Shown here: positions 2,174 to 40,687 of the stretch, piece after piece
Numbering within the stretch: position 1 is the first letter of the stretch
Layout: each line of letters begins with the position of its first letter
Assembly: GCA_000525675.1 (NCBI GenBank)
Contig: CP002190.1
Span: forward strand, 248,001-312,000
Source of the DNA: Bdellovibrio bacteriovorus W
GTDB lineage: Bacteria > Bdellovibrionota > Bdellovibrionia > Bdellovibrionales > Bdellovibrionaceae
Reading direction: 5' to 3'
DNA: 64,000 bases
Notes under the pieces: model-generated
What the model was told of the DNA's origin: nothing
The model's input: the letters and a program-made list of their open reading frames with translations, nothing else
Database searches by the model: none
Position numbers and translations under genes: made by a program

Positions 2174-4717
2174 ATGATTTTGAAGCTTGCTCTTCGCGAA
2201 CTTTTTAGAAGTTGGCGCTTTGGATTGTTTTTTATTTTTAATTTAAGCTTAGGCTTAACGGGTTTTGTCACTCTTGAGGCTTTCAATAGTGCTTTAAAAC
2301 AGCAGATTGAAATCAATGCGAAAGAGATTCTTTCGGCAGACTTGGGTGTAACGGCAAGGCGCGAGTTGAGTGAAGACGAGCTTAAGAAAATTAAATCTCT
2401 CTTACCTTCAGACTCTCAAGAGACAAAGATTTACGAGTTCTTTGCGATGATGTCGGGAAAAGATCAGTCTCGACTCATTATGCTTAAGGGGATTGATGCG
2501 GCTTATCCATTTTACGGGATGCTGCAGTTTGAATCGGGCGCGACTCTTACGCCCCAATCAGAGAGTCCACTTATTGGCTCCCATAAGGTTTGGATTTATC
2601 CAGAGTTGAAATCTCAAATGGGGCTCGAGGTTGGTGATAAAGTTCAAATCGGACAACTTCATTTAGAGGTCTCTGAAATTGTAGAGCGTGATCTCACACA
2701 GTCCTTCAGAGCCCTTGCGCTGGCTCCACGCGTGTACGTGGATCGCGCGCTATTGCCAGAGTCGGGACTGATTCAGTATGGTTCGACTTTTTCTTTAATG
2801 CATGCTTTTAAGCTTCCTTTAAGCTCTGAAAAAGATGAAGAGCTGCGCGCGAAGATCCTAGCAGAAATCAAAGATCCTGCTGTGAACGTGGTAACACCTC
2901 AGTCCGCGGGAGAGGCCTCCAGTCGGCAGCTAGGTTACTTAGCAGACTATCTGGGGCTTGTTGCTATGGTGTCATTATTCATGTCATCTTTGGGGGCGGC
3001 TTACATCTATCGACTCTTTATCACTCGTCGTATGAAAGAAATTGCGATCCTAAAAACTTTGGGACTGCAAAGTATTGAAGCCGTCGGTGTGTACGTGCTT
3101 CAAGCATCTTTACTGGGATTTTTTGCCCTTGTTCCGACGGTGCTCTTTAGTTCTTTATTATTGCCAGCACTGAGTCGCTTGCTTTCAAGTTTTACGCCAT
3201 TTGAATTGATTCCAACAATCACCACTTCTTCCGTCTTGATTGGTTTGGTGATGGCTGTCTTAGGAAGCTTCGTCGTGAGCTTACCGTTTCTCTGGAAGAT
3301 CTTTGGTTTAAAAACGGCAAAACTTTTTAGCGAAGAAAAGTTCTCGGAAGGGTTTGGAAAAACTCAGTGGTGGGCCTTCTTGCCTCTGGTGGTTTTATTC
3401 TATGGCCTTTCCGTTTATCAAGCTCACTCCTTTAAAATCGGCACGATCTTCGTTCTTGCTATGATCGCAGTTTCTTTAGGAATGCTTGTGTTGGGATGGC
3501 TGGTGGTAAAATCCTCAGCGTGGATTAAACCTCGTCAGTGGGAGTATCGCTTCAGTTTCTTAAGCCTATCGCGAAGAGCTGGCTCCAGCCTTTCAGTGTT
3601 CGTAGCTTTGGGTCTTGGGGCATTGCTTATTAATATTTTGCCTCAACTAAAAAATTCTTTGCAGGCAGAGTTTCAATTAGAAAGTGCCAGCAAGGTCCCT
3701 TCGCTATTTATGTTTGATATTCAAGATGAGCAGATTGAGCCTCTTGAAAAAGTTTTATCCGAAAAGAACGTAAAGGCTTTACGAATTTCCCCAATGGTTC
3801 GCGCAAGAATCTTAAAAATCAACGATCAAGACTTTGAAAGAGTCACTGGCAATACGGGCTTTAAAACTCGCGAAGAGGAACAAGATGCGCGTACACGAAA
3901 TCGTGGAGTGAATCTTTCTTATGGTCCTTTAAGTTCCTCTGAAAGAGTGGTTCAAGGGAAAGGGTTTAGTGGAGTCTATGTTGATGATGGTAAAACTCTG
4001 CCGGAAGTTTCATTAGAGTCTCAATTTGCAAAGCGTATGGGTCTTAAGATCGGGGACACCCTGACGTTTGATATTCAGGGGATTGAGATTCAAGGCAAGG
4101 TCGTTAATTTGAGAAAAATCAAATGGACAAGCTTTGAGCCTAATTTCTTTGTGACCATCCAAGAAGGGGTTATTGAAGAAGCGCCTAAGACATTCATCGC
4201 TGCTATTCCGGCCTTGGCTGAAGAGGATCGCAGGGGCTTGCAAAATGCAGTGGCAAAGTCGTTACCAAATATTTCAATCATCGACGTAGCTCGCACCGTG
4301 GATGACACGCTTAAGACAGCAGAAAAGATGAGCTGGTCATTGGAATTGATGGCGGGTTTGACCTTACTGACAGGTTATATCGTTTTATTCTCGATTGTGC
4401 GCTCGCAGATTCGTATGCGTCGCTGGGAATTGAATATGTTGAAAATCCTGGGGACAACTCGAGGGGCTCTGACTGGTTTTATTTTAAGTGAATTTGGCTA
4501 CTTGGCGTTCTCGGCAGCGATTTGTGGAGTGGGCTTAAGTTTCTTTGTGAGCTTTGCTCTGAGCGTATTTGTCTTTCAGAGTGGGTTTAGTATGAGTCTA
4601 TGGGCTCCTATTTTATCTGTGGTCTTTATTACGGGCCTAAGTTTGATAATTTCCTTGCTTGCGAGTTTGGATATCGTTAATGAAAGTGCATTAAAGATCT
4701 TGCGCGGAGAAAGTTAA
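2174..4717 (+). CDS. ybbP: FtsX-family ABC permease, YbbP-like
   Basis: 847 residues starting at the base after the ATPase stop. Topology is that of YbbP/LolC-like large permeases: one N-terminal membrane helix (about 17-37), an extracytoplasmic domain, then FtsX-type helix bundles around residues 255-375 and 400-445, a second extracytoplasmic domain, and a last bundle near 720-830. 'RRMKEIAILKTLGL' and 'RMRRWELNMLKILGT' are the paired coupling-helix motifs after the membrane helices, showing duplicated FtsX halves. Works with the ATPase upstream. Family role in moving hydrophobic molecules or signalling across the envelope is inferred. Confidence 0.9.
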   Translation: MILKLALRELFRSWRFGLFFIFNLSLGLTGFVTLEAFNSALKQQIEINAKEILSADLGVTARRELSEDELKKIKSLLPSDSQETKIYEFFAMMSGKDQSRLIMLKGIDAAYPFYGMLQFESGATLTPQSESPLIGSHKVWIYPELKSQMGLEVGDKVQIGQLHLEVSEIVERDLTQSFRALALAPRVYVDRALLPESGLIQYGSTFSLMHAFKLPLSSEKDEELRAKILAEIKDPAVNVVTPQSAGEASSRQLGYLADYLGLVAMVSLFMSSLGAAYIYRLFITRRMKEIAILKTLGLQSIEAVGVYVLQASLLGFFALVPTVLFSSLLLPALSRLLSSFTPFELIPTITTSSVLIGLVMAVLGSFVVSLPFLWKIFGLKTAKLFSEEKFSEGFGKTQWWAFLPLVVLFYGLSVYQAHSFKIGTIFVLAMIAVSLGMLVLGWLVVKSSAWIKPRQWEYRFSFLSLSRRAGSSLSVFVALGLGALLINILPQLKNSLQAEFQLESASKVPSLFMFDIQDEQIEPLEKVLSEKNVKALRISPMVRARILKINDQDFERVTGNTGFKTREEEQDARTRNRGVNLSYGPLSSSERVVQGKGFSGVYVDDGKTLPEVSLESQFAKRMGLKIGDTLTFDIQGIEIQGKVVNLRKIKWTSFEPNFFVTIQEGVIEEAPKTFIAAIPALAEEDRRGLQNAVAKSLPNISIIDVARTVDDTLKTAEKMSWSLELMAGLTLLTGYIVLFSIVRSQIRMRRWELNMLKILGTTRGALTGFILSEFGYLAFSAAICGVGLSFFVSFALSVFVFQSGFSMSLWAPILSVVFITGLSLIISLLASLDIVNESALKILRGES

Positions 4718-9025: not shown

Positions 9026-9046
9026 ATGTGTAAATAATGTGTAAAT
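9026..9046 (+). promoter_or_regulatory. Tandem ATGTGTAAAT repeats at the dinB start
   Basis: Two perfect copies of ATGTGTAAAT at 9026-9035 and 9037-9046, one helical turn apart (11 bp). The second copy runs into the dinB ATG (9045). A similar pair, ATGTAAAT at the same 11-bp spacing, occurs upstream of imuA (40112-40130). A shared damage-response operator is inferred. Confidence 0.35.
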
Positions 9047-10109
9047 GAAGAAGATCATTCACGTAGACATGGACTGCTTTTATGCGGCTGTGGAGGTAAA
9101 ATACAATCCAAGTTTAAAGGGAAAACCTTTAGGCATTGGTGGGCCTCCAAATTCTCGCTCAGTACTTTGTACGGCAAGTTATGAAGCTCGCAAGTACGGA
9201 GTGAGAGCTGCGATGCCATCCTCTCAAGCCGTTCGTCTTTGTCCCTCTTTAATTTTGGTACCGCCTCAATTCAACTTATATAAAAAAGAAAGCCAGAAAG
9301 TGCGTGAAATCTTTCAGAGATTCACAAACAAGATCCAGCCTCTGTCTTTAGATGAGGCCTATTTGGATGTGACTGATTGCACGGACTTCGGCGGAAGCGC
9401 AACTTTAATTGCTCAAGAAATTCGACGTTTGATTTTTGTAGAGACGGGGCTAACGGCTTCTGCTGGGGTGGCGCCTAATAAGTTTCTCGCTAAAATCGCG
9501 AGTGATTGGAAAAAGCCGAACGGTCAGTTTGTGATTCGTCCACAGGATATCAAATCTTTCATGGTGGATTTGCCGGTCGATAAGATTTTCGGTGTGGGGA
9601 AAGTAACAGCGCAGAAAATGTATGATCTAGGCATTAAAACCTGCGGGGATTTGCAAAAGTTTACTGTTTTTGAGTTGCACCAGTTTTTTGGATCTCGGGC
9701 GCAGGAACTCCATGATTACTCTTATGGTATTGATGAGCGAGATGTCATTACGGAGTGGGAAAGAAAATCTCTCACCGTCGAGTCGACGTTTGATAAGGAC
9801 TTGATGAGTTTGGAAGAGTGTCAGCAAGAGTTGTTTCCGATCTATGAGGATTTTTTACGCCGACTTAAGAAAGATGACTCCATTGATCGCGTTCGAGGCA
9901 TCGTCGTTAAGTTAAAATTTTTTGATTTTAAGCAAACCACTCATGAAAGGGTCTTCAAAGGACTTCCATCTTTAAGCGAGTTTGAAAGTCTCTTAGAAAA
10001 TGCCTACTTACGAAGACAGACTCCCGTTCGCTTGATAGGACTTGGAGTCAGGTTGGGCTCCGAAGTTGAGGAGCTTGAGAATTCGCCACAGCTACAATTT
10101 GCGATATAG
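9045..10109 (+). CDS. dinB: DNA polymerase IV (Y-family translesion polymerase)
   Basis: 354 residues with all catalytic signatures: HVDMDCFYAAVE (first metal-binding Asp), YEARKYGVRAAMPSSQA, SLDEAYLDVT (second Asp-Glu), and the helix-hairpin-helix 'KIFGVGKVTAQKM'. The extreme C-terminus SPQLQFAI contains a QLxF-type beta-clamp-binding peptide. It copies past damaged bases without proofreading. The gene stands alone, and its start lies in a direct repeat resembling one upstream of imuA, so damage control is plausible. ATG at 9045 is chosen because the protein begins directly with the catalytic core. Confidence 0.95.
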   Translation: MKKIIHVDMDCFYAAVEVKYNPSLKGKPLGIGGPPNSRSVLCTASYEARKYGVRAAMPSSQAVRLCPSLILVPPQFNLYKKESQKVREIFQRFTNKIQPLSLDEAYLDVTDCTDFGGSATLIAQEIRRLIFVETGLTASAGVAPNKFLAKIASDWKKPNGQFVIRPQDIKSFMVDLPVDKIFGVGKVTAQKMYDLGIKTCGDLQKFTVFELHQFFGSRAQELHDYSYGIDERDVITEWERKSLTVESTFDKDLMSLEECQQELFPIYEDFLRRLKKDDSIDRVRGIVVKLKFFDFKQTTHERVFKGLPSLSEFESLLENAYLRRQTPVRLIGLGVRLGSEVEELENSPQLQFAI

Positions 10110-20423: not shown

Positions 20424-21422
20424 ATGAGCTTTAACGGAAGTATAAGAAAACCAAATAGTCGTCGGATCCTGGTCATTGATTGTGAACCAGAGAGCCTTGA
20501 GATTCTTCTCGAGCCATTGCGCTGGGAGGGATACGATGCCCGTGGTGTTTCCACGGAAGAGGAAGCTCATGCATTGATTGAGTCATGGATTCCTCACGTG
20601 GTCATTTTGGATTGGATGGCTCCGTCGATGGCAGGTATCCGTCTTTTGCGCTCGATCAATGAGCGGCTGTCTCATGTAGCCTGTGTCTTTGTGTCGGAAA
20701 ACTCTAGCACCGAAGCCATCATTGAAGCTTTGGACGCAGGAGCCGATGATTACATTGTAAAACCTTTTGTTCCTTTAGAGCTATTGGCTCGTATCCGCAC
20801 GCAACTGCGTATTCGCGATTTGCATGAGCAATTGCTTTTTGCCAATGAAAAATTAAAAGAACTTGTGGATACAGATGACCTGACGGGTCTCTACAATATG
20901 CGCTCCCTCTATCAGCGCCTTGAGTTTGAACTTGAGAGAAGTCGTCGCTTCGGGCGCGATCTCTGCGTGGTGATGATGGATATGGACCACTTTAAGACGG
21001 TCAATGATGGTCACGATCACTTGTTCGGAAGTTACGTTCTTTCGGAAGTGGGAAAAATCATTCGTGCGAATACGCGCAATGTGGATATTCCAGCTCGCTA
21101 TGGTGGGGATGAGTTTCTGGTTGTTTTAACCGAGACAAGTCACGAAGGGGCGATGCACTTTTGTGAGAGATTAAGGGAAAATATTCAGCGCACTCAATTT
21201 AAGAGTGGAGATGATATCATCCGTTTAACGTCATCGATTGGTTTTGCTATTACTGTGCCGGGTGAAAATATTACTGCACGCGAATTGGTCCGCAGAGCTG
21301 ACCGAGCCCTTTATGATGCTAAACATAATGGGCGCAACCAAGTGGCTTTCTACAAGCACGACCAGGCGTCAGTCGTCAGTATTCAGGAAGCTTCTAGAAA
21401 ACGTCGTAAGATTGCGGGTTAA
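20424..21422 (+). CDS. Response regulator with GGDEF domain (diguanylate cyclase)
   Basis: 332 residues: receiver domain about 13-130 (phosphoacceptor Asp63 in ILDWMAP, Lys113 in VKPF), linker helix to about 150, then a GGDEF domain 150-320. The catalytic motif GGDEF is intact at 227-231, and the inhibitory I-site RxxD (Arg218-Asp221) sits exactly five residues before it, so the enzyme should be active and feedback-controlled by cyclic di-GMP. 'DMDHFKTVND' carries the substrate and metal contacts. In the receiver the usual Asp-Asp pair reads Asp19-Cys20, which may alter Mg binding. The layout is the same as Bdellovibrio DgcA; identity with it is not shown. No histidine kinase is adjacent. Confidence 0.93.
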   Translation: MSFNGSIRKPNSRRILVIDCEPESLEILLEPLRWEGYDARGVSTEEEAHALIESWIPHVVILDWMAPSMAGIRLLRSINERLSHVACVFVSENSSTEAIIEALDAGADDYIVKPFVPLELLARIRTQLRIRDLHEQLLFANEKLKELVDTDDLTGLYNMRSLYQRLEFELERSRRFGRDLCVVMMDMDHFKTVNDGHDHLFGSYVLSEVGKIIRANTRNVDIPARYGGDEFLVVLTETSHEGAMHFCERLRENIQRTQFKSGDDIIRLTSSIGFAITVPGENITARELVRRADRALYDAKHNGRNQVAFYKHDQASVVSIQEASRKRRKIAG

Positions 21423-34792: not shown

Positions 34793-37700
34793 TCATAGTG
34801 GCAGAACCTTCGCCGCCCGTATATTGATGATGCGACCTACTTTTTCAATATGCCCTTGAATCTCTAAAAGTGAATGACCGTAGATATTCATGCGATACTT
34901 CTGATAGACGTCAGGGTGAACGACGATGTTCATAAAGCCATTCTCATCTTCAAGAGTGAGAAAGCACATGCCCTTGGCTGTTGGTGGTCTTTGTGTGACG
35001 GCAAGGAGTCCCGCCAGACGCACAGCAGACTTGTTTTTAAGGCGCGTGAGATCTTGGGAAGTGTAGTAGGGAACGAAGCGATTCCTAATATAGTCTTCAT
35101 TCTTTCCCTGCAGATGAGTTCTTAGCACCGCGATGGGGTGAGAATGGATCGAAAACCCTTTTGTATCATATTCTCTTTGCAATTCGTCCCATTGGGATTC
35201 AAACGGAAGGTTTTCTGCATCTTCATCTTCAAACTCAAATTGCTCCTTAGCGTGTCCCCAAAGAAAGCTTTCGTTATCAAGGCTAAGAGCTTCAATTTTC
35301 CAAATAAGCTCTCGGGCATTGGTTTCAAAACACTGAAAAGCTCCTGCTGCTGCAAGCTTTAGAAGTACACTGCGTGGCAAAGAGGTGCGCTGAATAAAGT
35401 CGGTGAGATCTTTAAAAGGGCCTTTTTCTTTCCGTGTTTGAGTGATTTCCTGCAGAGCTTTCTCGGGCACACCAAAAATAGAACGGAAACCGACACGAAT
35501 ACAAAATCCCTGAGAGCTTGCCTCTAATGTGTAATCATATTGAGAGTTCTGAATGCAGAGGGCTTTAAATGAAACTCCATGTCTTTGTGCTTCGGCGATT
35601 AAAGTGCGTGGGGCATAGAAGCCCATGGGTTGGCTATTGAGAATCGCGCAAGTAAAGACATCGTGATGGGTCTCTTTGAGATAGCAGCTTGCATAAGTTA
35701 AAAGTGCAAAGCTTGCGGCATGACTTTCTGGAAAACCATAATTAGAAAAACCTTCAATGGTCTTATAGATCTGCTCGGCATAGTCGGAAGAGATTTGATT
35801 GCGAGTAAAGCCATCTAAGATTCTTTGACGAATCCCGTTCATGGTTACCTTCTTGCGCCAAGCTGAGGACATAATTCTGCGCAATTCATCGGCTTCACCC
35901 GGAGAAAAGTCAGCAAGGGCAATAACAATCCTCATCACTTGTTCTTGAAAGATGGGCACCCCATGGGTTTTCCCGAGGATGTTTTCCAAAAAAGGATGTG
36001 CGTAAACTACCTTTTCAAGTCCTTGGCGTCGCTTCAAATAAGGATGAACCATGCCCCCTTGTAAGGGGCCGGGACGAATGAGGGCTACTTGAATAACTAA
36101 ATCGTAGAAGTTTTTAGGTAGCATTCGCGGCAGAGTTTGCATTTGTGCCCGCGACTCAATTTGGAAAACTCCGACAGTGTCAGCCTTGCCAATCATTTCA
36201 TAGGTGGCTTGGTGATTATGGGGAATCGAGGCTAAGTTTAAAGAAATTCCCTTATGATGTTTTAAGAGATCAAAACATTTTCTCAGACAACTCAACATCC
36301 CAAGGCTTAGAATATCAATCTTCATCAGCTTTAAAGTCGCCACATCATCTTTGTTCCACTGAATAACATAGCGTCCGTTCATAGTGGCCTTTTCAACAGG
36401 AACCATTTCGGTAATAGGGTCTTGTGTGATGAGAAATCCCCCTGTGTGAATCCCAAGGTGACGGGGAAATCCATGAAGTTGCTGAGTCAGACTTAAGATC
36501 ATTTGCCATGAATCTGCGGGGATGTTGAATCTCTCTGCGGCTTCAGGTTCTAAGAGACGACGGATGCCGTCTCTTCCCATATAGGTGACGATTTGATTTA
36601 TTTTCTCAAGTGAAACGCCAAAGACTTTTGCAGTTTCGCGAATAGCCATTCTCGATCGATAGCGAATCACCGTGCACACCATGGCTGCGTGGCGCTCGTC
36701 GTATTTTTCATAGATATGCTGAATAACTTCTTCACGGCGTGAGTGCTCAAAGTCGATATCAATATCAGGAGGCTCGTGTCTTTCTTTGGAAATGAATCTT
36801 TCAAAAAGTAAATCAATCTGCGTAGGATCTACAGCGGTAAGGCCAATACAAAAGCATACCACGGAGTTTGCAGCAGAGCCGCGCCCTTGATAGAGAATGC
36901 CCTTGCTTTCAGCGAAGTCGCAGATTTCTTTCAGAGTGAGAAAGTAATCTTCATATTCCATTTCTTGAATCAGCTTTAACTCATAATCAATAGCGCGCAG
37001 AATTTTCTCAGGAACACCTTGAGGGAAGCGTCTCTCGGCACCCTTGTAAGCCAAATCTTTTAAATGCTCTGAAGGAGTTTTTTGTTCTGGTAAATTTGAA
37101 TGGGGATAACGGTAGCGGATCTGATCTAGTTGAAATTCAATGCGCTCGGAGATCTCCACAGTTTTTTCCACAAGATCTATTCGCTCACTCCAAAGATTTG
37201 AAATTTCTTCGAGGCTTTTTAGATGTCGTTCGCCATTTTGAATGAGTTTGTTTTTAGCACTTTCAAGATTTGTCTTATGCAGAATGCAAGTTAAGACATC
37301 AAATAAGGGTTTGCGATCACGATGATGCATAAAGGGTCTTTGGGTTACAAAGAGTTGCGCGTGATGAGATTTTTCAAGCTCCATAGCTTTTCGGTAAATT
37401 TCTTGGGACTCCCACGTAAAGTCTTTCCATAAAGGTAAATAGAGGCGATCTTTAAATATGCTCTCTAGTTTTTCATAGCGTTCAGTGTTCCAAGGTGGAA
37501 TAGCAAAGCAGAGAAGCCCTTCATTCAGTCTTTCAATTTCAGCAAGGCTGAGTTTAGAAAAACCTTTGCTCGCCTGTCTTTTCCCTAAAGTGAGTAGTTC
37601 ACACAGGTGCGAATAACCTTGTTTATTGATAGGCATTAAGATCACAGAAGTTTCATCTGTCAGGGTGAGTTCTGTACCAAATAAATAGCGAAAGCCCTCT

Positions 37701-37984
37701 TTGGCTTTTGCTGAAGCAGAAAAAAGAGAAGGATTGAGAGCCGCTTGAAATCCGCGCACGACTCCATAAAGACCATTCAGGTCACAAATCGCCAAGCCAT
37801 CATATTCATGATGAATAGCTTCTTGGACAAGTTCTTCTGGGTGAGAAGCGCCTTGCAGAAAAGAAAAGTTACTGCGCGCTAGGAGTTCGACGAAACCCCG
37901 AGCGCGTCTTTTCGTGCTGATAGCTTGTGTGATCTTCTTACTCGGAAGATTTACTTTATGATTTCCACTAATCAAAATAGCCAT
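34793..37984 (-). CDS. dnaE2: Error-prone DNA polymerase III alpha subunit (DnaE2/ImuC)
   Basis: 1063 residues, typical DnaE2 length. N-terminal PHP domain: 'RSNFSFLQGASHPEELVQEA' and 'CDLNGLYGVVRG', where the usual DHNG His is Leu, so the PHP metal site is degenerate as expected in DnaE2. Catalytic aspartates are in 'PDIDIDFEHSRREEVI'; 'GRGSAANSVVCFCIGLTAVDP' and the helix-hairpin-helix and OB-fold zones follow. It is the polymerase of the imuA-imuB-dnaE2 mutasome that copies damaged DNA. Start overlaps imuB stop by 17 bases. Confidence 0.95.
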   Translation of the reverse strand: MAILISGNHKVNLPSKKITQAISTKRRARGFVELLARSNFSFLQGASHPEELVQEAIHHEYDGLAICDLNGLYGVVRGFQAALNPSLFSASAKAKEGFRYLFGTELTLTDETSVILMPINKQGYSHLCELLTLGKRQASKGFSKLSLAEIERLNEGLLCFAIPPWNTERYEKLESIFKDRLYLPLWKDFTWESQEIYRKAMELEKSHHAQLFVTQRPFMHHRDRKPLFDVLTCILHKTNLESAKNKLIQNGERHLKSLEEISNLWSERIDLVEKTVEISERIEFQLDQIRYRYPHSNLPEQKTPSEHLKDLAYKGAERRFPQGVPEKILRAIDYELKLIQEMEYEDYFLTLKEICDFAESKGILYQGRGSAANSVVCFCIGLTAVDPTQIDLLFERFISKERHEPPDIDIDFEHSRREEVIQHIYEKYDERHAAMVCTVIRYRSRMAIRETAKVFGVSLEKINQIVTYMGRDGIRRLLEPEAAERFNIPADSWQMILSLTQQLHGFPRHLGIHTGGFLITQDPITEMVPVEKATMNGRYVIQWNKDDVATLKLMKIDILSLGMLSCLRKCFDLLKHHKGISLNLASIPHNHQATYEMIGKADTVGVFQIESRAQMQTLPRMLPKNFYDLVIQVALIRPGPLQGGMVHPYLKRRQGLEKVVYAHPFLENILGKTHGVPIFQEQVMRIVIALADFSPGEADELRRIMSSAWRKKVTMNGIRQRILDGFTRNQISSDYAEQIYKTIEGFSNYGFPESHAASFALLTYASCYLKETHHDVFTCAILNSQPMGFYAPRTLIAEAQRHGVSFKALCIQNSQYDYTLEASSQGFCIRVGFRSIFGVPEKALQEITQTRKEKGPFKDLTDFIQRTSLPRSVLLKLAAAGAFQCFETNARELIWKIEALSLDNESFLWGHAKEQFEFEDEDAENLPFESQWDELQREYDTKGFSIHSHPIAVLRTHLQGKNEDYIRNRFVPYYTSQDLTRLKNKSAVRLAGLLAVTQRPPTAKGMCFLTLEDENGFMNIVVHPDVYQKYRMNIYGHSLLEIQGHIEKVGRIINIRAAKVLPL

Positions 37985-39290
37985 GCAGATATACCTGTGA
38001 ATTTATACGATCTTTGAAAACCCACAGAAGTTGATCATGCTGAGAAAATGCAAAATAGTAGTCGCGGTTTTTGAGGTCTGTTTCTGTTGTTTTCCACCAA
38101 GAGGATTCGATTCTCTCAGTTGGAAATTTTGTAATAAATTGCAAGGCTTGTACTTGTTGAGGAGTGAGGGCCTTGGGTTTGTCTAAGAGTAAAGACGGAC
38201 GAGGGGATTGGGCAAGCCCTTTGGCATAGACAGATTTAATTTGCACAGCCTCATCAATACGCTCTACAAAATCGTGGGCCTTGAAATCTTCTGGCCAGTC
38301 TGTGACAAGGCGGAAACTCTGCTCTGGAAAGTGACTGGCTTCAACTTGTAAAAAACCCATTTCGCAATGAGCTTGTTTGGCAAAACTAATAAGTCGTCGC
38401 CAGCGGTCCTCTGAGTTGTCGCGGGGCTCAAAGAAATCGAGTTGTTGAACTTTTTCAGGAACATCGGAAATAGAAATTTCAAACTCGCGAATAGGATTTT
38501 CTAGCACTAAATCAGAAAGTTTTTTTGCAAGAAGATCTTCAAATAGAACTTGGTCACGCGTAGGGCTTACGGGCTCAATGGCTAAAGAATATCTGCGATG
38601 AGAGTATTCACAGTGCAAGATCACTTCAAGCTTCTGGGCAAAACGAGAAAGCCCCTGAAGTCGTAAGAAGAGGTGATTTAATGAAGGCTTAAGATGATTC
38701 ATCAAGAGTGAAACATTGTGAATAGGGTCATCAAAATATCCGTAAGACGAGAGCGGATCTTGAGGAGTAAATGCAGAGATGACTTGCAAGTCTTCGTTAT
38801 GCAATCTTTTCCAAATCAAAGTTCCAGCCTCGCCCCAGCGTTCGCGCAGAGAGCTAATACGGAAATTGTAAACATCCATTAAAGAATGCACGCCTAGCGA
38901 GTGAAAAACTTGAATCATGTGATCGAGCTTTGTGGTTTGGGGCCAAGCAGTTAAGCCCTCAAGATCTTTTAAGGGATCGAGTCCTAAAGTTTTCAAAGAC
39001 TCCACTTCATTTAAAGTCTCGGAGATATGAAATGGTTTCCACTTTGCGAGAAGTTGAGCAAGGTAAGGGGAGTTTGCAATAGCAGCCGTGGCATCTTGAG
39101 AAAAATGATTGGCGATCTCAAGAGCTTTTAAAAGACAATCTTTCTCTCCACCTAAAAGATGAGACGTCGAAGCTATATCTATAAAAATATAGCTAGGATG
39201 GCGTACTTGCACACGAGGGCTGAGAGTTAGAAAAGCTTCAGCCCAGGAGTTTTCGAGAGGTGTTTTTAAATTGATGCACAAAGTTCGCAT
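37968..39290 (-). CDS. imuB: ImuB, inactive Y-family polymerase homologue (short N-terminus)
   Basis: 440 residues. 'IFIDIASTSHLLGGE' near residue 35-49 corresponds to ImuB 'LDVTGxxHLFGGE', and helix-hairpin-helix and little-finger zones follow. Catalytic acidic residues of Y polymerases are absent, as in all ImuB. QQLDFF (Gln283-Phe287) is a beta-clamp-binding motif. The N-terminus before the LDVT-like motif is about 50 residues shorter than usual; an in-frame TGA two codons upstream of the ATG rules out a simple extension. It bridges ImuA, DnaE2 and the clamp. Overlaps imuA by 53 bases. Confidence 0.88.
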   Translation of the reverse strand: MRTLCINLKTPLENSWAEAFLTLSPRVQVRHPSYIFIDIASTSHLLGGEKDCLLKALEIANHFSQDATAAIANSPYLAQLLAKWKPFHISETLNEVESLKTLGLDPLKDLEGLTAWPQTTKLDHMIQVFHSLGVHSLMDVYNFRISSLRERWGEAGTLIWKRLHNEDLQVISAFTPQDPLSSYGYFDDPIHNVSLLMNHLKPSLNHLFLRLQGLSRFAQKLEVILHCEYSHRRYSLAIEPVSPTRDQVLFEDLLAKKLSDLVLENPIREFEISISDVPEKVQQLDFFEPRDNSEDRWRRLISFAKQAHCEMGFLQVEASHFPEQSFRLVTDWPEDFKAHDFVERIDEAVQIKSVYAKGLAQSPRPSLLLDKPKALTPQQVQALQFITKFPTERIESSWWKTTETDLKNRDYYFAFSQHDQLLWVFKDRINSQVYLHGYFD

Positions 39291-40080
39291 GAATCATGCT
39301 CCCAGATATTTTAAAAGGGGTTGGGCGATGCAGAGCTCTTTGAACTGTCACAAAGTCTCTTTGAAATAAAATAGACAGACTAAAAAGAGGGTTCACAAAT
39401 TTAAGAGGCTCGGGATTTACAAGCACCAAGGCCACCTTGTGCAGACGGCAAAGTCTTTTGAGTTTTTGCAGTTGGTGATTTTTTAAAAACATCTCTTTGA
39501 GATTGCAGCCGATTACCTCAAAAAGAGAGCTAGTGATAAGCTCCTGCAAAACCCAGAAGAGTTGCTCTTTTTCTTGGGGCTCTTTAAGGACTAATAATTT
39601 TTTAAGGTTAACACCTTGGCTTTGCAGGTGAGCTGGGAAAATCTGCGTTTCACTATTCACCCAAGCTGCCCATTTGTTTTCAGAATGGACTTGTCGCAAA
39701 GTTTGAATCCAAAGCGAAGTCGCTCCAGTGCCAGGGAGTCCTTGAAACAGACTGAGATCCCCTTGTGGAAGACCTTGCCAGAGAAGGAAGTTATCAATGA
39801 CGGCAACCCCTGTTGGAACTCCATCAGGGGGCTTAACGTGCTCCGCTTCGACAAAAGGAACCAAGCTCAGGACATTTTCATTATCAGAAGAATCAAAAGC
39901 ACCTTTTACGGGAGGGGCTTCTTCTTGATGGTAATTGTCTTGGCTCCAAGGATCGTCGAGATTGGCGGAGGTTTGATGGAAGGCAGGGTCGCACCAATCA
40001 TCTGCTGTGTCGGCAGAGGATTCATCAAAGGAATCAGAAGTGTTTCTAAGATCATTTTTATCATCGAAGGATGATTTCAT
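39238..40080 (-). CDS. imuA: ImuA, RecA-like mutasome component
   Basis: 280 residues. RecA/SulA-type core from about 85: 'GVAVIDNFLLWQGLPQGDLSLFQGLPGTGATSLWI', with a degenerate Walker A (GLPGTGATS, no Lys), and a later 'KVALVLVNPEPL' strand. The first 65 residues are very acidic and Ser-rich (DDKND, DESSADTADDWCD), unusual for the family. Position as first gene of imuA-imuB-dnaE2 supports the call. ImuA helps load the mutasome on RecA filaments (family knowledge). A 37-bp dyad lies 14 bases upstream of the ATG. Confidence 0.85.
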   Translation of the reverse strand: MKSSFDDKNDLRNTSDSFDESSADTADDWCDPAFHQTSANLDDPWSQDNYHQEEAPPVKGAFDSSDNENVLSLVPFVEAEHVKPPDGVPTGVAVIDNFLLWQGLPQGDLSLFQGLPGTGATSLWIQTLRQVHSENKWAAWVNSETQIFPAHLQSQGVNLKKLLVLKEPQEKEQLFWVLQELITSSLFEVIGCNLKEMFLKNHQLQKLKRLCRLHKVALVLVNPEPLKFVNPLFSLSILFQRDFVTVQRALHRPTPFKISGSMIHANFVHQFKNTSRKLLG

Positions 40081-40093
40081 GAGTAAGCCCCTT

Positions 40094-40130
40094 ATTTACA
40101 TATAATCTACTATGTAAATTATATGTAAAT
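40094..40130 (-). promoter_or_regulatory. Dyad upstream of imuA with LexA-box-like centre
   Basis: ATTTACATATAAT (40094-40106) and ATTATATGTAAAT (40118-40130) are a perfect 13-bp inverted repeat. The 11-bp centre, CTACTATGTAA (40107-40117), matches TTAC-N3-GTAA, the form I recall for Bdellovibrio LexA, except at the first base. It is placed at -14 to -50 from the start codon, as expected for a repressor of the SOS mutasome. ATGTAAAT copies 11 bp apart echo the dinB leader. Confidence 0.6.
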
Positions 40131-40134
40131 CAAG

Positions 40135-40155
40135 AGGGCTTATCGAGAAAGCCCT
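40135..40155 (-). terminator. Weak terminator-like hairpin after the alkyltransferase gene
   Basis: AGGGCTT / AAGCCCT stem with a 7-base loop, 41 bases beyond the alkyltransferase stop. Only a short T-rich tail follows on the minus strand, so function is doubtful. Confidence 0.4.
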
Positions 40156-40195: not shown

Positions 40196-40687
40196 TTAAA
40201 GAGCGCCTTCTTGAACCAGTAGAGCGCGCTTTGTATCTGCTCCCCAATGGTATTTCATCTGGCTTGTGCCTTTGCCGACAACGCGGTGGCAAGGAATCCA
40301 GTAGCTCACAGGATTTTTTGCAACAGCTGAGGCCACTGCACGGAAAGCCGTCGGTTTGCGCATTTTCTTTGCTAGATCGGAGTAAGTCACAGTGGCGCCA
40401 CGTGGAATTTTCACAAGCTCTAGCCATACTTTTACTTGGAACTCAGTTCCTTGGAGTTTTACTTTGTGTTTTTTCTTCCAGAAGTTCCCTTTTGTCCACG
40501 GAACAGCCTCAAAAGAGCCTAAATGGAAGTGGTAGTTTTTATGGAAGAACTCATTTAGGTCTTTTTCTAAAGATTTTTTTCCAACGCTGTAGTTACCCAT
40601 GAAGATAATCTCTTTACCTTCATAAACAGCTAACCAATCGCCAGATTCTGATGGAACTTTATAAAGATGGAATTCTAAATCACCCAT
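40196..40687 (-). CDS. ogt: Methylated-DNA--protein-cysteine alkyltransferase
   Basis: 163 residues. The active site is 'NPVSYWIPCHRVVGKGT' (PCHRV with the acceptor Cys), preceded by 'GTEFQVKVWLELVKIPRGATVTYSDLAKKM' and the Arg finger 'RAVASAVAKNP', all Ogt/Ada-C features. It transfers alkyl groups from O6-alkylguanine to itself. Located just upstream of imuA on the same strand but separated by the dyad and a weak hairpin, so it joins a DNA-repair neighbourhood. Its ribosome site lies in a hairpin (40690-40720). Confidence 0.95.
   Translation of the reverse strand: MGDLEFHLYKVPSESGDWLAVYEGKEIIFMGNYSVGKKSLEKDLNEFFHKNYHFHLGSFEAVPWTKGNFWKKKHKVKLQGTEFQVKVWLELVKIPRGATVTYSDLAKKMRKPTAFRAVASAVAKNPVSYWIPCHRVVGKGTSQMKYHWGADTKRALLVQEGAL

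Follow-up and report, generated by a model that had tools for sequence, protein, structure and literature searches.

A composite LexA-type operator of four half-sites predicted upstream of imuA in Bdellovibrio bacteriovorus W

A perfect dyad upstream of imuA in Bdellovibrio bacteriovorus W is most likely a LexA-bound operator of the imuA-imuB-dnaE2 cassette, judging from its four half-sites, which are arranged as two facing direct repeats with 7-bp spacers (N7) and whose inner pair forms the published LexA box. Seen directly in the DNA are the anatomy of the operator, the fact that lexA and dinB share it, how it is conserved and which genes adjoin it. The features are collected in Table 1, with positions counted in the window, which is the whole 64-kb stretch of DNA that was analysed.

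Table 1. Features of the imuA and dinB regions in the window
Feature	Position	Strand	Basis or remark
Composite LexA-type operator/promoter of imuA (predicted)	40094..40130	-	TTAC-N7-TTAC-N3-GTAG-N7-GTAA on the minus strand
Half-site 1, TTAC	40125..40128	-	directly downstream of TTGAT
Half-site 2, TTAC	40114..40117	-	separated by 7 bp from half-site 1; forms the central box's left half
Half-site 3, GTAG	40107..40110	-	forms the central box's right half; reads GTAA at the genus's 21 exact imuA sites
Half-site 4, GTAA	40096..40099	-	7 bp from half-site 3
Probable -35, TTGATT	40128..40133	-	inferred from TTGAY before half-site 1 in 48/48 lexA promoters with exact left repeat
Candidate -10, TAGATT	40104..40109	-	18 bp from TTGATT; inferred from TAANTT at the same place in 42/48 lexA promoters
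Terminator-like stem-loop after the upstream methyltransferase gene	40135..40155	-	1 found versus 1.0 expected in shuffles
imuA	39238..40080	-	NF033429 ImuA, E 3.3e-14, 53.2 bits, under the cut-off of 150; orthologues in relatives
imuB	37968..39290	-	no NCBIfam/Pfam match; named from its place in the cassette
dnaE2 / imuC, error-prone DNA polymerase	34793..37984	-	NF004225, 1169.8 bits, cut-off 939
ogt-type methylated-DNA methyltransferase	40196..40687	-	upstream neighbour, same strand as imuA
Direct-repeat-only operator of dinB (predicted)	9027..9045	-	plus strand GTAA (9030-9033)-N7-GTAA (9041-9044), reaching the start codon
dinB, DNA polymerase IV	9045..10109	+	NF002677, 472.5 bits, cut-off 256

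The dyad at 40094-40130 reads ATTTACATATAAT-CTACTATGTAA-ATTATATGTAAAT (whole string ATTTACATATAATCTACTATGTAAATTATATGTAAAT), and its arms of 13 bp each form a perfect inverted repeat, in exact agreement with the sequence-only reading in which it was first pointed out. It is located between the imuA start codon (ATG at 40080, minus strand) and the 3' end of the ogt-type methyltransferase gene. Perfect 13-bp inverted repeats with a loop of up to 30 bp were found at four distinct places in the window, and none was found in 20 first-order Markov sequences of the same length. The remaining three have the appearance of terminator-type hairpins when inspected by eye. A role of the dyad itself as terminator was rejected, since the only terminator-like stem detected is the separate one downstream of the methyltransferase gene. 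A Rfam scan of the window returned no family at gathering score. When the genome was scanned for the dyad, as that reading had suggested, a single place was found in 3,006,992 bp at up to three mismatches (on both strands).

The centre CTACTATGTAA carries TTAC-ATA-GTAG, one mismatch from TTAC-N3-GTAA; it had been called LexA-box-like, and we regard it as a probable LexA-type box. By itself the centre box is not statistically significant: the window contains 16 sites with up to one mismatch to TTAC-N3-GTAA versus 18.15 expected, a chance level at which the central box alone was dropped as a finder of LexA sites. The sole exact TTAC-N3-GTAA in the window, at 20750-20760, is within a coding frame.

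The same architecture is present at lexA. The lexA promoter of this genome is AAGCCCTCTTGACTTACATATAATTTACACTGTAAGTTCGTATGTAAGTATG and the imuA promoter, read on the minus strand, is AAGCCCTCTTGATTTACATATAATTTACATAGTAGATTATATGTAAAT; both hold the centre and the arms, with the layout TTAC-N7-TTAC-N3-GTAA-N8-GTAA at lexA and TTAC-N7-TTAC-N3-GTAG-N7-GTAA at imuA, so that TTAC-N3-GTAA is exact at the former and has one mismatch at the latter. With no mismatch allowed, TTACATATAATNTACNNNGTA has no place in the 3.0 Mb other than imuA (both strands) and the region preceding lexA. The proposal that the arms are a second motif for a different dimer is not supported, because the same outer half-sites flank the centre at the lexA promoter and because a direct repeat of the arm type is found by itself in front of further SOS genes, dinB among them. 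Each arm adds an outer copy of the TTAC(A) half-site, and a second regulator is therefore not needed for them.

In the LexA encoded here, a DNA-binding domain of LexA type and an S24 domain were detected (TIGR00498, 148.8 bits, cut-off 110.95), and the self-cleavage residues Ala-Gly, Ser and Lys were recognised by eye. The lexA frame has an interruption at ten consecutive A past the catalytic residues (L004:3396-4119; G000:C1:2733395-2734118), which puts the final ~35 residues, including the last part of the S24 domain, in another frame. The other family genomes that encode LexA with a DNA-binding part have lexA in one open frame, and in the 64-kb window all runs of A or T are shorter than nine. 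The interruption may be an assembly error, phase variation or a real loss. With half-site 3 of imuA changed and lexA interrupted, regulation may be altered in this strain. A different change was observed in genome G009 (L097, G009:C1:2845500-2847300), where the promoter and the DNA-binding domain of lexA are lost and the peptidase part appears, by eye, to be fused to a small gene that is seen upstream of lexA in B. bacteriovorus W; the imuA and dinB operators of G009 are intact.

The composite recurs within the family. Exact TTAC-N7-TTAC-N3-GTAA-N7/8-GTAA was found in 27 of 66 family genomes (reversed control 1/66) and in 27 of the 368 phylum genomes, every one of them from the own family (control 2/368). 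Rather than being absent from close relatives, which the sequence-only reading had named as a refutation, the full four-half-site form stands without mismatch upstream of imuA in 21 of the 24 Bdellovibrio genomes, and equally at lexA in 21 of the 24. The exceptions at imuA are the present genome (one mismatch), G024 (a shortened form) and G018 (imuA not found), and those at lexA are G022 (one half-site changed), G024 (left repeat only) and G009 (promoter lost). A pattern made of the promoter plus the left part of the operator matched 33 places in 84,980 species genomes, of which 30 are lexA or imuA promoters of this family and 3 are unrelated; the 30 are largely assemblies already counted in the family set, some under other names, and three of them were assigned by equal length with contigs already read, the gene having run off the fetched piece. 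By our own reading, a fourth half-site (GTA, 7 or 8 bp further on) not required by this pattern is present at 30/30 family places and 0/3 unrelated ones. The base after the outer TTAC, left free in the four-half-site pattern, is A on both sides in 26/26 compared composite sites, as at the inner half-site. In G036, three half-sites differ from TTAC at the same base (CTAC/GTAG), as would be expected if one protein reads them all.

The relative conservation of repeat and palindrome was compared in 61 lexA promoters; five of the 66 genomes (G009, G029, G042, G057 and G064), in which the LexA gene with a DNA-binding part or its promoter was not found, were left out. TTAC-N7-TTAC is exact in 48 of the 61, and the same two half-sites at any other spacer from 0 to 30 bp are found exactly only once (4 bp). 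TTAC-N3-GTAA is exact in 44/61 and GTAA-N7/8-GTAA in 32/61 (N7 in 11, N8 in 21). When one mismatch is allowed, the direct repeat is present on at least one side in all 61 promoters and the palindrome in 54; mononucleotide shuffles at one mismatch give 13% for the left repeat, 13% for the palindrome and 20% for the right repeat, for which two spacings are allowed, so single one-mismatch cases such as G041 may be due to chance. By these counts, the best-kept element across the family is the TTAC-N7-TTAC direct repeat, rather than the palindrome.

Departures from the standard layout were also found. The lexA promoter of G034 keeps both N7 repeats around an N4 centre, at the second imuA of G035 two N7 repeats face each other at a distance of 16 bp (N16), and at small-ORF promoters in G012 and G018 they do so at 17 bp (N17). 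Besides the left repeat of G024, lexA of G030 has a left repeat with one mismatch, and G031, G032 and G033 possess an exact right repeat at lexA but, even with one mismatch allowed, lack a left one. In G024, G030, G032, G033 and G034, the lexA promoter is at least two mismatches away from the palindrome and retains a direct repeat. Half-site 4 runs directly into the lexA start codon in several genera (GTATG), and lexA may be leaderless there.

The direct repeat is also present alone, as at dinB. Its extended form, TTTACAYANNATTTACAYA, has 86 matches in 45/66 family genomes (reversed control 0/66); in the phylum sample it was found in 44/357 genomes (reversed control 0/357), and in none of the 294 phylum genomes outside the family. 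In this genome, a search with up to two mismatches gave three sites, namely dinB (0), imuA (0) and lexA (2), with two in the reversed control. The surroundings of all 86 matches were inspected and 49 adjoin DNA-damage genes: dinB (24), imuA (4), divergent imuA-like genes (3), imuB or other Y-family polymerases (8), umuD (2), recA (1), lexA (1), the radical-SAM PA0069 family (4) and the repair-linked family TIGR03916 (2). The 24 dinB matches, all with the N7 repeat, come from 23 of the 24 Bdellovibrio genomes and from G061. The other 37 are close to small unknown frames, mobile mystery protein A, toxin-antitoxin-like or unknown genes, or have no gene assigned. Genes at the 86 sites were named by profile search for representatives, and by DinB comparison or by eye for the others; some profile-searched frames were cut by the fetched piece and so scored below the cut-offs. 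The divergent imuA-like genes were named mainly from context, one representative reaching E 1.3e-6 with the ImuA profile, far under the cut-off; dnaE2 was found downstream in 5/5 such loci checked, with 35-39% identity.

A broader pattern, with TTGA in front, gave 88 matches in 54/66 genomes versus 5 in the reversed control. Nineteen of the 88 lie elsewhere than at lexA, imuA or imuB genes and comprise seven divergent imuA-like genes, four sites at a 36-aa frame near lexA, one radical-SAM gene and seven without clear meaning. A predicted operator common to DNA-damage genes, as is expected of an SOS regulon, is found here at lexA, imuA and dinB, and additionally within the family at umuD, recA, Y-polymerases and repair-type radical-SAM genes.

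Further genes were observed behind direct-repeat operators. Small proteins of ~60-95 aa, many with MGAFKE, MGAMKE, MGTFKE or MSAMKE near the start, are encoded there at L176, L199, L200, L202, L205 and L230, and it is possible that they are SOS-induced. The 36-aa frame (MQTINNLVALNK... or similar) is located ~1.4-2 kb from lexA in G058, G059, G060 and G062 (L188-L191). Mobile mystery protein A-type genes with a helix-turn-helix (HTH) are found in several Bdellovibrio genomes (L195, L198, L206 and L238, the last one checked by profile), as if a mobile element had come under SOS control.

On balance, we favour the view that the true LexA unit of the family is the direct repeat TTACAYA-N4-TTACAYA (TTAC-N7-TTAC) and that the palindrome is the junction of two facing repeats at lexA and imuA. 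One repeat would then confer single control, at dinB and in some relatives at recA, umuD, imuB or repair-type radical-SAM genes, and two would confer tight control. The presence of the unit at dinB and other genes would make the Bdellovibrio SOS regulon larger than lexA and the cassette. Among the points that weigh against the reading as a LexA operator are the less clear-cut lexA promoters at one mismatch, the N8 right spacer in 21 of them, the 37 of 86 repeats without a recognised DNA-damage gene, and the repeat in two assemblies, G042 and G064, in which no LexA was detected.

It is also conceivable that two proteins share the composite, with LexA occupying the centre only and the direct repeats of the arm type bound by another regulator linked to damage. 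The repeat stands without palindrome at dinB, at the divergent imuA-like genes and at recA of G030, and a LexA-independent co-regulator of the damage response is described in Myxococcus in the accessible part of PMC12288472. LexA with a DNA-binding part was not found in four genomes, G029 (100% complete), G057 (83%), G042 (72%) and G064 (81%), and of these, G042 and G064 still hold the TTTACAYANNATTTACAYA repeat, which speaks for a second protein, but G029 and G057 have no match to the four-half-site, TTGA-front or TTTACAYANNATTTACAYA patterns. The second protein would moreover need nearly the same targets and the same half-site (TTACA) as LexA, and a LexA confined to the palindrome could not autoregulate in G024, G030, G032, G033 and G034, since the lexA promoters there have lost the palindrome by at least two mismatches and kept the repeat. 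We consider this arrangement improbable.

The position of the half-sites relative to putative promoter elements suggests how the operator would work. TTGAY stands directly before half-site 1 in 48/48 lexA promoters, and TAANTT follows at an 18-bp spacer in 42/48, where the 48 are those chosen for exact TTAC-N7-TTAC; the mirror image of TTGAY after half-site 4 is found in only one of the 48. These elements are probably the -35 and -10, with the caveat that the TAA belongs also to half-site 3. We infer LexA as the binder, its reading of the direct repeat, the number of dimers, the two promoter elements and the induction by damage. The half-sites TTAC, TTAC, GTAA and GTAA (the third being GTAG here) would present two N7 repeats facing each other across a 3-bp gap, in which half-site 1 would abut the TTGAY -35, half-site 2 would lie in the spacer, half-site 3 would overlap the -10 region and half-site 4 would be at or near the transcription start. 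Two or more LexA dimers on the composite would block RNA polymerase, and a lone repeat such as that of dinB would take one dimer. Upon DNA damage, LexA would cleave itself under stimulation by RecA, freeing lexA and imuA-imuB-dnaE2 and, via its single direct repeat, dinB.

In another explanation, the central box alone is the operator and the arms are promoter elements (TATAAT and a -35) conserved for RNA polymerase. TATAAT is present in both arms, and a promoter scan of a 901-base stretch, which gave three promoter-like sites versus 1.6 expected, called a 10-of-12 promoter there; the invariant TTGAY in the 48 lexA promoters with exact left repeat fits a -35. However, TATAAT as the cause of arm conservation was rejected, since the hexamer varies in other genera: it is exact at its position in 10/48 promoters and is replaced elsewhere by CATTTC, CATAAA, TATTTA and others while TTAC is kept, though the 48 had been selected for TTAC-N7-TTAC. 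In addition, no promoter role for imuA is evident in the right arm, and the distance between repeat and start codon is different at dinB and at further genes. This explanation is very unlikely.

Least likely of all, with hardly any weight left to it, is a primary role of the dyad as an RNA hairpin that hides the imuA ribosome-binding site in upstream read-through transcripts: the minus-strand RNA of this genome does fold at -31.4 kcal/mol (z -7.8), and in relatives the sequences just beyond the operator complement the GGAG region, a pairing equalled or beaten by 23 of 2000 permutations (18 distinct pairs in 22 sequences; the permutation ignores relatedness), but transcription would begin inside the dyad if the -35 and -10 are right, leaving the own imuA RNA without the 5' arm, linker pairs fail in 29/154 cases in imuA-type sites and 13/28 in other genera, and the spacers at lexA are mostly unequal. 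Such a hairpin could be a minor additional layer on read-through RNA. In window 40060-40140 (minus strand), the complementary outer flanks are AGCCCTCTT/AAGGGGCT, which in read-through RNA would base-pair close to the ribosome-binding region; relatives have similar flanks.

The genes downstream of the predicted LexA operator encode ImuA, ImuB and DnaE2 in cassette order, ImuB being recognised by its place and by orthologues in the same order. Campoy and co-workers reportedly found the Bdellovibrio LexA box at a dnaE-type cassette as well (2005). In six family genomes, representing five genera, imuA lies ~0.5 kb or less behind lexA in the same orientation. Given the near-identical lexA and imuA promoters, a single promoter may once have served both genes and been copied when they parted. 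In G025 (L141:1702-2985 and 3126-3158), an opposite-strand gene with a helix-turn-helix-like start was observed between imuA and imuB, and the imuB separated in this way possesses its own exact copy of the four-half-site operator. A CCTTCCC stretch was noted near the imuA start in 20/23 loci (L043-L065), and the likewise C-rich CTCCC or CCYTCCC close to the start of lexA in 29/30 loci (L013-L042); these may be an RNA signal or merely conserved Leu-Pro codons.

These results suggest, from comparative sequence evidence, that the Bdellovibrio damage response is wider, and its LexA site built otherwise, than published. If true, the SOS regulon of a predatory bacterium would gain dinB beside lexA and the mutasome, with recA, umuD and repair-type radical-SAM genes added in some relatives. 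An operator combining the palindrome with direct repeats, of which relatives keep one, would also indicate how a LexA lineage moves between architectures. According to the accessible part of PMC8565304, the site of the LexA repressor has changed many times in the course of evolution, and its spacers are rigid. The same source, also in part, ties splB and genes of the UDG system to the SOS network of Bacteroidetes, in agreement with the radical-SAM genes found behind repeats here. According to the portions of PMC3323433 available, the imuA cassette is the only LexA-regulated unit in several organisms, with Bdellovibrio work among that cited. Neither a direct-repeat LexA site of Bdellovibrio nor a LexA-controlled Bdellovibrio dinB was found in the accessible portions of the open-licence literature, and the composite direct-repeat architecture is probably new, the published site in those portions being the palindrome only.

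The LexA site of B. bacteriovorus is given as TTAC-N3-GTAA (Campoy et al. 2005, as cited in the accessible parts of PMC8565304 and PMC3323433). Our sites agree with it in the central element, apart from the one mismatch at imuA of this genome, and in the presence at lexA, but the box here is the middle of a four-half-site array, the outer half-sites and the N7 repeat are kept where relatives lost the palindrome, and dinB has the repeat without the palindrome. Compared with other imuA-imuB-dnaE2 cassettes, including operons that start with lexA (PMC3901139 and PMC3323433, in the parts accessible), gene content and order are alike, whereas in Bdellovibrio lexA and the cassette are separate, and a copy of the composite promoter precedes each of them. 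The atypical SOS box of Acinetobacter, that of UmuDAb with DdrR (PMC11332147, in the part accessible), is likewise a damage operator departing from the simple LexA box, but Acinetobacter is without LexA and the repressor is unrelated. The closest likeness in form is to the alphaproteobacterial box GTTC-N7-GTTC (PMC8565304 and PMC3323433, in the parts available), in which a 4-bp half-site is likewise repeated directly across a spacer of 7 bp; unlike it, the site described here has TTAC as half-site, faces a second repeat at lexA and imuA, and belongs to another lineage. The Bdellovibrio repeat may work like the alphaproteobacterial box, though with TTAC in place of GTTC it is not a member of that class.
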